Shown piece by piece: positions 8,629 to 15,188 of a DNA stretch of 20,143 nt; position 1 is the first letter of the stretch, and each line of letters begins with the position of its first letter. Under the pieces are notes generated by a model. It was not told where the DNA came from. It saw only the letters and a program-made list of their open reading frames with translations, and did not search any database. The stretch covers positions 1 to 20,143 of the IMG/VR virus record IMGVR_UViG_3300020215_000157; one strand, 5' to 3'. The translations under genes and the position numbers were made by a program. Source of the DNA: a virus.

Positions 8629-9177
8629 ATGAATCCGCTTTCCGTAAATGGAGTTACTGTTTCTGCTTTGGCCGCAATCACGGCGCCGCAAGGAAACGAC
8701 CAACAAGAAGAACATCGGTATTATCACTGCACCATGCCAACCGCCTCCTTTCACCGACCGGATGGAAAAAAGCTTCCGTTCATTCGTGGTTTTTTCAAGA
8801 CCAATATTCGGCAGGATATCGAGTATCTCGAAAACGAACTGCAGCAAGGCAATCAATTCCTTCGTCGGGCGACTGCTGAAGAAATCGAAAGTGCCAAGCT
8901 CATGGAAGACCCGCTGGGCACCGTGCGCGAAGCAGTAAAAGAAGAAATGACGCTGGAAGAGCTGGAGAAGTTGGTTGCGAAAAAGAAGCAACTGCTCGCC
9001 GCCAACCCGAATGCAGGTGTTTCTGACGGCACCAAACTCGGCGGTGTTGATCCGTCGAAAGCAAGAGCTGCACTGCAGGCGAACGGAGTTACGAATCTTT
9101 CCACCGGACCATCCGGCCATGCGTCTGCAACTGGCGCGAATCTCGCCGGTCTGAAAAACATGGTGAAGTCGCAGTAA
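8629..9177 (+). CDS. Hypothetical virion-region protein, 182 aa
   Basis: I do not recognise this protein with certainty. It has a small beta-like N-terminal domain with HYYHC-like composition (RYYHCTMPTASF, then GKKLPFIRGFFKT and a helix DIEYLENEL, about residues 30-75), a charged helical middle (about 87-125, LEELEKLVAKKKQLLAA) and a flexible Gly/Ala/Ser/Asn tail. Phage genomes often carry a protein of this size with a phrase like GKKxxFxxGxFxT between the capsid and adaptor genes, without a known role. The ribosome site is TAGGA, eight bases from the ATG. It is the first gene after the terminator. Confidence 0.6.
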   Translation: MNPLSVNGVTVSALAAITAPQGNDQQEEHRYYHCTMPTASFHRPDGKKLPFIRGFFKTNIRQDIEYLENELQQGNQFLRRATAEEIESAKLMEDPLGTVREAVKEEMTLEELEKLVAKKKQLLAANPNAGVSDGTKLGGVDPSKARAALQANGVTNLSTGPSGHASATGANLAGLKNMVKSQ

Positions 9178-9194
9178 ATTAGGAGAATACGGCA

Positions 9195-9788
9195 GTGACC
9201 AGAACGGAAATCATTAATGAAGTAGTTTCTCTTACGGATCGTGAAGATCTGGCAGCTACTTCTATTCCTACTATGGTCACTGCTGCCACTCTCCGGATGC
9301 ATCAGTCAGATTTTTATTCTCGAGATCTTGCAGAAGATATGCTGGATCTCGGAACTGAAGGTTTCCACTTTTCTTTCGACGCCAGCACTACTTTCCCCCG
9401 CTTCCGTGCTCTGCACTATCTTCGTAAATACGATCTTACTGGCGAAACCGCTGGTGTAATGCTCTCGCATCTCGATCCACTTTCGCTCTTTGATTCTTAT
9501 GGCGTGGAAAAGAATGACGTCTGGTACAATGCAGGAAAGAACATAAATATTCGCTCGGCCAGCAGCTTGCGTTATTTGCTCGCTGGTTGGTATCAGAATC
9601 CGGACACCAGTGCAACTGGCTATTCCTCCTGGATCGCAGATATGGTGCCGCATGCGATTATTTTCGATGCTGCATCACTGGTATTTAACATGATTGCGCA
9701 ACAAGAGCAGAGCCGTAAGTTCGATTCGCTTGTTGCTGAACAGCTTGTTCTCGTGCGGATGCACGGCTTCGACGCGAGGGGTTACTAA
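9195..9788 (+). CDS. Putative head-tail adaptor (T7 gp11 / P22 gp4-like)
   Basis: This 197-residue, largely helical protein matches the size of podovirus adaptors (T7 gp11 has 196 residues). The N-terminus (MTRTEIINEVVSLTDREDL, then helix VTAATLRMHQSDFY) resembles adaptor proteins that dock under the portal. Next come a beta segment (FHFSFDASTTFPRFRALHYLRKY) and a C-terminal helical bundle (DMVPHAIIFDAASLVFNMIAQ, then EQLVLVRMHGFDARGY). It starts with GTG, supported by TAGGAGA. Twelve copies would form a ring between portal and nozzle. The call rests on architecture and gene order, not a catalytic motif. Confidence 0.7.
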   Translation: MTRTEIINEVVSLTDREDLAATSIPTMVTAATLRMHQSDFYSRDLAEDMLDLGTEGFHFSFDASTTFPRFRALHYLRKYDLTGETAGVMLSHLDPLSLFDSYGVEKNDVWYNAGKNINIRSASSLRYLLAGWYQNPDTSATGYSSWIADMVPHAIIFDAASLVFNMIAQQEQSRKFDSLVAEQLVLVRMHGFDARGY

Positions 9789-13347: not shown

Positions 13348-13923
13348 ATGTCCGACGTTCGATTCAATCTTCCCTTCTCCATTGGACTCGGCGACGTACC
13401 GGATAATCTGCCGCCGGAATTTAAATCTTTCGCAGATACGCTCTATAACGCCTTTCAACAACTGCTTCTAGCCTGTCACAACGAGCTAGGAGTTGGCCAG
13501 CAGCTGCAGAGTTTATGGTCGATTCTAGGCTATAACCAACTGCATCGCGCGAGCATGGGCAGACTCTATTGCCTAACGTCTGAAGTAATTGCTTATGGTG
13601 CCGCAGTTAATCTCTTTTCCAATGCTGGCGTCCTTACTGCACGCAATGCAAATGCAACAAATAATACAAGACCGGCGCACGGCTTCTGTCTTGTTTCTGG
13701 CGGCTCCGCATCTGGCGTCTATACGGAAGTAGTCTTAAATCGCGGTCTAGTAACTGGATTCGCCGGACTTACTCTTGGAACTCGGTATTTTCTTTCTACT
13801 TCCAACGGGCAAGTAACTGCAGCAGCTCCTGCCGCTGCGGGAACAATAAATCAAGCACTGGGATTAGCACTGGCGACCGACGTCTTGCTGTTCGATTTCG
13901 GTTTCCATTATATTCAAAACTAA
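13348..13923 (+). CDS. Virion protein with fibre-like C-terminal beta domain
   Basis: This 191-residue protein has an N-terminal helical part (about 20-65, FKSFADTLYNAFQQLLLACHNE) that could be a trimeric stalk, then a C-terminal domain (about 75-191) with the pattern ARPAHGF-like (TRPAHGFCLVSGG), VVLNRGLVTGFAGLTLGTRYFLS, NGQVT, then QALGLAL and a final aromatic strand. The same pattern occurs in many phage surface proteins, often as a small beta domain on head fibres or fibre tips. No enzyme residues are seen. A head or tail fibre protein is the best guess. The ribosome site is poor. The next gene starts 14 bases after its stop. Confidence 0.6.
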   Translation: MSDVRFNLPFSIGLGDVPDNLPPEFKSFADTLYNAFQQLLLACHNELGVGQQLQSLWSILGYNQLHRASMGRLYCLTSEVIAYGAAVNLFSNAGVLTARNANATNNTRPAHGFCLVSGGSASGVYTEVVLNRGLVTGFAGLTLGTRYFLSTSNGQVTAAAPAAAGTINQALGLALATDVLLFDFGFHYIQN

Positions 13924-13937
13924 GGGAGAGAAAGAGA

Positions 13938-14180
13938 ATGAATCGTGTATTTATTGACAATCAAGGCCGTTTTTATAAGGCCAAAGAAGCTGCGGATGCT
14001 TCTCACGCGGAACGTTCGCTGGTTACGGCGGATATGCTCGCGGTACTTCCGGACGATGGTACGCCGATCTATCAGGTGGAAATCGACCAGAAAGTTAAGC
14101 AGCTCGCAGATAGGCGCGAAGGTGCTGCAAATGGCCTTGTTTCAGGGGAGAAAGAGCATGGGGAACAAATCGACACCTAA
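13938..14180 (+). CDS. Small hypothetical protein, 80 aa
   Basis: This hydrophilic 80-residue protein begins with a short beta hairpin (NRVFIDNQGRFYKAKEA), followed by helices and a Glu/Lys-rich end. There is no membrane segment. The ribosome site AAGGGAGAG is very strong. Its last 23 bases overlap the start of the membrane protein at 14158 in another frame, and the overlap carries that gene's GGGGAGA site, so the two are likely coupled. The N-terminal hairpin is reminiscent of small virion-associated phage proteins, but I do not recognise the family. Confidence 0.7.
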   Translation: MNRVFIDNQGRFYKAKEAADASHAERSLVTADMLAVLPDDGTPIYQVEIDQKVKQLADRREGAANGLVSGEKEHGEQIDT

Positions 14181-14412
14181 GGGGGACTCGGATGAAAGTG
14201 CTTACGTTGCAGAAGAACGAACAAAGCCACAGCGAATCTGGCTCACAGAAGAACAGCTCGACCTTCTCGCAGAACGAGCAGCAGCCAAAGCTCTCGAAAA
14301 CTTCTATCTCGAAGTCGGAAAGGTCACTGTACGATCAAGCTTGTATATCCTTGGGGCGGGGCTTATCGCGCTGTTTGGTTGGCTCGCTCTCACTGGAAAA
14401 ATCAGCGTCTAA
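14158..14412 (+). CDS. Single-helix membrane protein, lysis region
   Basis: This 84-residue protein has a hydrophilic N-terminus, a charged helix with EEQLDLLAERAAAKALENFY (about 31-50), and one C-terminal membrane helix (about 60-79, SLYILGAGLIALFGWLALTG). The frame is open further upstream, but the ATG at 14158 has GGGGAGA seven bases upstream and avoids a long overlap. The plan of a cytoplasmic or periplasmic helix with a C-terminal anchor resembles small phage membrane proteins near lysis genes, sometimes named holin-like or anti-holin. It sits just before the DUF5675 gene, so a lysis role is reasonable but unproven. Confidence 0.7.
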   Translation: MGNKSTPKGDSDESAYVAEERTKPQRIWLTEEQLDLLAERAAAKALENFYLEVGKVTVRSSLYILGAGLIALFGWLALTGKISV

Positions 14413-14419
14413 AAAATAA

Positions 14420-14833
14420 ATGCTAGTCGAACTGAAGCGGAATTGGTACAGAAATGACGGGACTTTCGGGCTTCTTGGAATTGACGATTTTCCCGTCTGC
14501 TGTACTTTAGAGCTTCCCTGGCAGAATAACGAATCCAGAGTGAGCTGCATCCCCACTGGTAGTTATATGTGCCGACGGGTAAACTCTCCTAAATTCGGCA
14601 ACACATTCGAAGTCACTAAGGTTCCAAATCGTACTCATATTCTCTTTCACGGCGCAAATACGATGAAAGATCTGCTCGGATGTATCGGTCTTGCAGAATT
14701 CTTCCATCGGTTCAACGGTGTAGCAGGCGTCGCAAATCCTAGCAAAGGTGCAGCACTGATTGAATTTCTCCAGCTTACGAAATCTGTGGATGAGTTTAAG
14801 CTGGTGATTACTGACTGTTTCTCTGGGAGGTAA
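14420..14833 (+). CDS. DUF5675 family protein, candidate lysis enzyme
   Basis: This 137-residue protein matches my knowledge of DUF5675: N-terminal LKRNWYRNDGTFGLL, then FPVCCTLELPW, IPTGSY (44-49), FEVTKVPNRTHILFHGAN with H77, and LLGCIGL with C88. The His-Gly and Gly-Cys pair eleven residues apart, after a strand, recalls the active-site order of L,D-transpeptidases (HG, later GC), so a cell-wall role is plausible. The family has no settled biochemical function that I know of. The gene lies between two small membrane proteins, and no classic lysozyme, amidase or transglycosylase gene appears in the window. The ATG has no clear ribosome site and may rely on coupling to the gene ending eight bases upstream. 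Confidence 0.8.
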   Translation: MLVELKRNWYRNDGTFGLLGIDDFPVCCTLELPWQNNESRVSCIPTGSYMCRRVNSPKFGNTFEVTKVPNRTHILFHGANTMKDLLGCIGLAEFFHRFNGVAGVANPSKGAALIEFLQLTKSVDEFKLVITDCFSGR

Positions 14834-14834
14834 A

Positions 14835-15188
14835 ATGGCACCCTTAGCAATTCTTGCGCAGCTGCTTTTTCCAATCGTCGTAGATAAGGTGAAAGAAAAG
14901 CTGGCAGAGAAAGCTGGCAATGGCTTTGCCGACGACAAAAAAGAGATCACGACCAGCGAAGTTGTTGGTCCGGTGATGAAAGTAGTTGCAACTGCAAAGC
15001 TGACGTGGTTCGCATTTGCGTTGGCAGTAGTTGCAGTTGTGGTCGAACACCAGCAACTGTTTGCTGATCTGATTCCTGCAGACTATCGCGGTTACTGGAC
15101 TGCTGCAATCGGCGTTGTGGTCCTGCTGCTCAAAAACTTCGCTACTCGCGACGTAGAGCAGAAGGTTGCTGACGTAATCAAGGAGTAA
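14835..15188 (+). CDS. Putative holin, two membrane helices
   Basis: This 117-residue protein has an amphipathic, hydrophobic N-terminus (about 4-18, LAILAQLLFPIVVDKV), a charged linker, then two membrane helices at about 55-71 (KLTWFAFALAVVAVVVE) and 87-100 (YWTAAIGVVVLLLK), and a charged C-terminal tail. Size and topology fit class II holins, which open the inner membrane so the lytic enzyme can reach the wall. It starts one base after the DUF5675 stop with GGGAGG as ribosome site, and its end carries the AAGGAG site of the next gene. A virion-associated membrane protein is the alternative. Confidence 0.7.
   Translation: MAPLAILAQLLFPIVVDKVKEKLAEKAGNGFADDKKEITTSEVVGPVMKVVATAKLTWFAFALAVVAVVVEHQQLFADLIPADYRGYWTAAIGVVVLLLKNFATRDVEQKVADVIKE

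Follow-up and report, generated by a model that had tools for sequence, protein, structure and literature searches.

The window analyzed here is a linear virus fragment of 20,143 nt from IMG/VR, with packaging, portal, and SU10-like capsid genes of a tailed phage. The initial annotation proposed that three consecutive genes at 14158–15188 form a lysis cassette built around a DUF5675 protein, and that no classical endolysin is visible in the window. All three ORFs are present on the plus strand, and Pfam searches of 25 window ORFs agree with the second point, returning the SU10-like major capsid protein and DUF5675 as sole matches and no classical endolysin. A six-frame search of the window gave no match to Amidase_2. 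Since the window is a fragment whose missing part could encode an endolysin, this absence is weak evidence alone, and relatives are needed. Searches for window relatives yielded none with the 548-aa protein and one 8-kb fragment with the portal.

The first gene of the cassette (14158–14412, plus strand) encodes an 84-aa protein that precedes the predicted enzyme and may be a holin or its partner, with a single hydrophobic helix at its C-terminus (residues 62–80, from hydropathy) and no match in Pfam or PHROG. The ORF list gives this frame solely as a longer GTG ORF (13945–14412); the ATG at 14158 is preceded by a GGGGAG stretch and produces a 23-base overlap with the preceding gene. It is followed by the 137-aa DUF5675 protein (14420–14833, plus strand), a predicted YkuD-fold peptidoglycan hydrolase, and by a 117-aa membrane protein (14835–15188, plus strand), a candidate holin with a helix at residues 50–68 and an N-terminal hydrophobic stretch. 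The earlier description of the 117-aa protein as two-helix and holin-like is borne out as regards its membrane character, but it matches no holin family in Pfam or PHROG.

The 137-aa protein belongs to PF18925 (DUF5675; E = 4.4e-25, 88.2 bits against a curated cut-off of 26.7) and matches phrog_1501, to which PHROG assigns no function. PF18925 is its only match at E up to 0.1, with none to PF03734, the strict YkuD family. A sequence search of the PDB returned one chance match (E = 1.3) for the window protein and none for a profile of the 58-sequence family, and hence no solved DUF5675 structure. Hydropathy indicates neither a signal peptide nor a hydrophobic helix in the protein, and no SAR-type N-terminal anchor.

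Conservation was assessed over 58 DUF5675 sequences filtered to approximately 85% identity. Thr29, Glu31, Arg71, His77, Gly87, and Cys88 are each invariant (58/58), and His77, Gly87, and Cys88 remain so after the addition of Microviridae, Mu-like, Microcystis, and Vibrio members (26 sequences). The initial annotation had read His77-Gly78 followed by Gly87-Cys88 as recalling an L,D-transpeptidase active site. The letters are right and three of these positions are conserved throughout, but Gly78 occurs in only 2 of the 58 sequences and lies outside the motif. The adjoining positions 79 and 80 are Gly (56/58) and Asn (57/58), and position 85, Leu in the window protein, is Ser or Thr in 56/58. Alignment by hhalign with six YkuD proteins places His77 and Cys88 on His194 and Cys210 of LdtB (E = 0.0026 and 0.0011, at low probabilities of 11.5% and 20.5%). 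With this alignment and their invariance, the His and Gly-Cys residues correspond to the catalytic motif of the YkuD superfamily, His77 (codon 14648–14650, plus strand) being the predicted catalytic base and Cys88 (codon 14681–14683, plus strand) the predicted nucleophile.

The Arg found two residues past the catalytic Cys in many L,D-transpeptidases is missing from DUF5675; position 90 is Leu, Ile, Val, Gly, or Cys in all 58 sequences and Arg in none. According to the portions of PMC12729407 and PMC10653827 available, this GCxR arginine is found in many LD-transpeptidases, and the hydrolase DpaA is without it. Since the arginine is missing and the closest structures, described below, are hydrolytic, a hydrolase (L,D-carboxy- or endopeptidase) is favored over a transpeptidase on sequence and model grounds. 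The earlier assignment holds for the alignment of His77 and Cys88 with the YkuD catalytic residues; the transpeptidase label is the less likely one. The DUF5675 of the R21Y type (L090, 5980–6414) has a longer His–Cys loop (HKGN...THSNGC, 19 residues), nearer the classical YkuD spacing, and is possibly a bridging subfamily.

The AlphaFold model of the window DUF5675, built from 58 sequences, has a mean pLDDT of 96.0 and a pTM of 0.89. Foldseek placed Bacillus subtilis YkuD at the top, weakly (E = 0.076, TM 0.43) and level with an RNase E chain whose TM was <0.2, so a second comparison, with VIA-align, was needed. All 50 matches listed there are YkuD/L,D-transpeptidase-fold enzymes (Z 6.6–9.9), the best among them being Pgp2 (Z 9.9, rmsd 2.6 over 110 of 137 residues), with Csd6 (8.9), YkuD (8.9), DpaA (8.4), and Tlde1a (8.2) also listed. 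A second model (pLDDT 91.3) was made for a distant DUF5675 protein, 35% identical to that of the window, which occupies the endolysin slot in the Mu-like contig L125. It gave 22 YkuD rows at Z 6.5–11.1, including Pgp2 (11.1, 119 of 141 residues), Csd6 (9.3), Tlde1a (9.2), Bd1075 (9.2), and DpaA (8.6); the next, unrelated row scored 2.5. Both predicted models have the YkuD-superfamily fold, and the comparison with YkuD that had been proposed for this protein is positive for each.

The L,D-carboxypeptidases Pgp2, Csd6, and Bd1075, the best structural matches of the DUF5675 models among those listed (Z 8.9–11.1), have the same Cys-based peptidase fold and act on the stem peptide. These are, however, host cell-shape enzymes with extra domains, whereas DUF5675 is one small phage domain beside membrane proteins and lacks PF03734. 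DpaA (YafK/LdtF) of Escherichia coli resembles DUF5675 in its YkuD fold, missing GCxR arginine, and short His–Cys spacing (8 vs. 11), but is a host hydrolase that cuts the Lpp–peptidoglycan bond. YkuD domains are counted among phage lytic proteins in PhaLP (10 entries under PF03734, PF10908, or cd16913; PMC8310338), and DUF5675 is not among these entries in the part of the source available.

Other DUF5675 proteins are among the structural relatives of the window model in the BFVD viral library. A further relative there, A0A7M1RYB0 of the uncultured crAss-like phage cr116_1 (E = 5.2e-8, 22% identity), already bears the name "L,D-carboxypeptidase/transpeptidase"; its likeness to the window protein is structural, and the assignment is by name only. 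The BFVD entry A0A1L7N1E2_2 of Ralstonia phage RP31 contains a DUF5675 domain inside a 1251-residue model. Some DUF5675 members may therefore be virion parts, and certain large phages may have a virion-associated form.

The whole cassette recurs in two IMG/VR contigs, L045 and L060, which share with the window the order virion protein, 191-aa protein, small protein, one-helix protein, DUF5675, membrane protein(s), and two large proteins. The 191-aa protein (13348–13923, plus strand) serves as a syntenic marker, with relatives in L045 (1.8e-25) and L060 (3.9e-25). The small protein, 80 aa in the window (13938–14180, plus strand), is a conserved neighbor with weakly similar proteins in the matching position of both contigs, and probably lies outside the lysis unit. 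A one-helix protein directly precedes DUF5675 in all three (110 aa in L045, 109 aa in L060), with no sequence similarity detected between the 84-aa window protein and the other two. What lies 3′ of DUF5675 varies: the window has the 117-aa protein, L045 a phrog_1544 protein of 180 aa, and L060 two hydrophobic proteins of 73 and 74 aa. Lysis cassettes often keep their gene order while the membrane proteins change. The Pfam families listed for the 41 ORFs of the 33.8-kb L060 record (25 of 28) include no known lysin.

Small membrane proteins are enriched beside DUF5675 generally. Neighbors were counted, with crude gene calling, for 57 of the 58 representatives, leaving out the window; an upstream neighbor was available for 53 and a downstream neighbor likewise for 53. 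Small (<260 aa) helix-bearing proteins occupy 24/53 upstream and 32/53 downstream positions, compared with 254/1513 genes of the same contigs (one-sided p of 1e-6 and 1e-12, for sequences that are not fully independent). A holin scan covered 98 of the 106 neighbors (eight long ones were dropped) and the two window proteins. Among these 100 proteins, GTA_holin_3TM was matched by six and phrog_3427 by six, and phrog_20 was found upstream of DUF5675 in L002. In Vibrio phage 1.122.A, DUF5675 and GTA_holin_3TM pair up as a unit of two genes, with the neighboring genes on the other strand, and in Salinibacter phage M8CRM-1 GTA_holin_3TM lies three genes downstream of DUF5675. Recognized holins were found only beside the DUF5675 of relatives; the 84-aa and 117-aa window proteins matched no holin family.

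A phrog_1544 membrane protein lies 3′ of DUF5675 in unrelated phages (L045, 6795–7334; L108, 4402–4884; L092, 10397–10987), and Mu-like cassettes have a similar protein of approximately 200 residues after GH108 and after GH24. We regard phrog_1544 as a candidate holin family.

The position of DUF5675 in Mu-like phages bears on its function. In phage Mu, spanin genes and the gene for the releasin gp25 (DUF2730) come after that for the endolysin gp22, and 34 active Mu-like phages have DUF2730 no more than five genes downstream of their endolysin, as described in the part of PMC9239132 available. The Mu-like Vibrio phage martha 12B12 has DUF5675 at the place of the endolysin, with the late activator gene on one side and DUF2730 on the other. 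Vibrio phage 1.028.O is 98.1% and 97.3% identical to martha (DNA) in the flanks; between them, the martha segment of DUF5675 and its preceding gene is swapped for another gene and a GH108 lysozyme (PF05838, 1.2e-20; PF09374, 4.2e-18). The gene directly upstream of the slot (L092, 9181–9639 in martha; L094, 982–1434 in 1.028.O) changes along with DUF5675 or GH108, and the product of the martha version has a signal-peptide-like N-terminus. The slot also holds GH108 in Shewanella phage MuM16-2 and DUF5675 in Vibrio phage ZX4290.

A survey of Mu-like loci via the martha terminase gave 80 loci, of which 70 could be scored, the slot being out of reach in 10. The slot contains GH108 in 59, GH24 (PF00959) in six, Amidase_2 in one, an SLT domain in one, a sub-threshold lysozyme or SLT match in one, and DUF5675 in two; DUF5675 and GH108 occur together in none of the 70. 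As the slot otherwise always holds a lytic enzyme, its occupation is strong evidence that DUF5675 is one. The proposal that DUF5675 could be a cell-wall enzyme acting as endolysin is accordingly supported, at the level of sequence, by the exchange with GH108. The slot evidence comes from four DUF5675 carriers only (martha, ZX4290, L125, and L160), which probably represent one or two acquisitions. The endolysin locus is thus occupied by the DUF5675 of Mu-like phages, a group to which the window phage does not belong. Pfam analysis of 47 martha proteins gave no known lysin among the 25 of 56 families listed, and a swap search around VA-RY-3 did not find a clean replacement. The known slot endolysins (GH108, GH24, amidase, SLT) share with DUF5675 the location from late activator gene to DUF2730 and the rule of one enzyme per phage, but are unrelated to it in fold and chemistry. 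Mu gp22, moreover, is a SAR endolysin according to the available portion of PMC9239132, whereas DUF5675 is without an N-terminal helix.

Other lysins were sought in 48 DUF5675 records, comprising 37 IMG/VR contigs of at least 30 kb and 11 phage records, by searching for PF00959, PF05838, PF01510, PF13539, PF08291, GH19, and SLT. The first five of these were found in 0/48, and GH108 was detected in both positive controls. GH19 (PF00182) was silent in targets and controls alike, so its result is uninformative and is not counted. An SLT transglycosylase is present in 3/48, and DUF5675 is therefore not always the sole possible wall enzyme. In L039 the SLT gene (8810–9373) lies approximately 0.4 kb upstream of DUF5675, beside the gene for a 1797-aa protein, and its product may be virion-associated.

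DUF5675 also occurs in complete Microviridae genomes of 5,035 and 6,406 nt (L088, 7–384; L089, 3650–4042), a possible case of wall-degrading lysis in ssDNA viruses. In the descriptions available for the virulent Vibrio phages R21Y and Virtus, DUF5675 is listed as DUF5675 or hypothetical and no endolysin is named. SIO-2 carries a DUF5675 gene, and for a close relative of SIO-2 the accessible part of PMC11719698 names a holin alone. No tie to lysis was found in the portions of the literature available on DUF5675, PF18925, or phrog_1501, and the lysis terms looked for are absent from the crAss-like phage paper PMC7886860.

The explanation that best accounts for these data, to which we give a probability of roughly three in four, is that DUF5675 is a phage endolysin, namely a holin-released, Cys-dependent L,D-peptidase with a YkuD fold. 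Its basis is computed: the fold, the His/Gly-Cys motif, the absent arginine, the slot swap with known endolysins, and the membrane-protein and holin neighbors of relatives. From these we infer peptidoglycan hydrolysis by DUF5675, the exact bond cut, and the role of the window membrane proteins as a holin system. DUF5675 would be a small single-domain YkuD-fold enzyme working as a hydrolase. As signal peptide and helix are absent, it should build up in the cytoplasm until the membrane is opened; the 117-aa protein, the 84-aa protein, or both would open the inner membrane and release it. On reaching the periplasm, the enzyme would use Cys88, with His77 activating it, to attack the amide bond that follows the L-center of diaminopimelate in the stem peptide, and the product would be released to water, so that cross-links are cut and the cell lyses. 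As an endolysin, DUF5675 would be a known kind of enzyme with an unusual fold.

The same fold would also suit a true L,D-transpeptidase or exchange enzyme that remodels or blocks cross-links and so weakens the wall during host growth. T6SS Tlde1 effectors have been reported to remodel or block cross-linking, and LD-transpeptidases and Tlde1a are among the YkuD-fold matches listed (Z ~8–9). We nevertheless consider a transpeptidase unlikely, given that the missing arginine is shared with the hydrolase DpaA, that DUF5675 swaps one for one with a GH108 lysozyme, and that, lacking an export signal, it would need a holin first. The likeness to DpaA itself (Z 8.4–8.6, short His–Cys spacing, no arginine) raises the alternative of an amidase that frees outer-membrane lipoproteins from peptidoglycan as a helper, with the main endolysin encoded elsewhere. 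This seems improbable, as DUF5675 occupies the endolysin slot rather than the spanin slot, and no other lysin was found among the families listed for the 47 martha proteins (25 of 56) or the 41 L060 ORFs (25 of 28).

Least probable, and in our estimate very unlikely, is that DUF5675 is virion-associated or otherwise unrelated to lysis and stands beside membrane proteins by chance. Such a role would agree with the tail or virion genes adjoining DUF5675 in R21Y and the window, the domain in the large RP31 protein, and the SLT gene alongside it in three of 48 records. It is at odds with the lone DUF5675–holin pair of Vibrio 1.122.A, oriented opposite to its neighbors, the Mu-like slot swap, and the enrichment of transmembrane neighbors.

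Returning to the endolysin reading, it is more likely than not that DUF5675 represents a widespread class of YkuD-fold Cys endolysins, unrecognized so far, with L,D bonds in the stem peptide as their target. Such enzymes would serve tailed phages of many bacteria as well as tiny ssDNA microviruses, and within lysis cassettes they could trade places with lysozymes, transglycosylases, and amidases. An endolysin seems to be missing from many phage genomes, R21Y and Virtus being examples in the descriptions available. If the reading is correct, a large set of phages would gain an annotated lysis system, PHROG 1501 and PF18925 would gain a function, and a Cys-based L,D-peptidase would be added to the chemical types of endolysin. 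Phage phiX174 lyses its host by means of a single-gene inhibitor; if DUF5675 is an endolysin, microviruses carrying it may, as opposed to such phiX174-type inhibitors, lyse by a wall-degrading enzyme.
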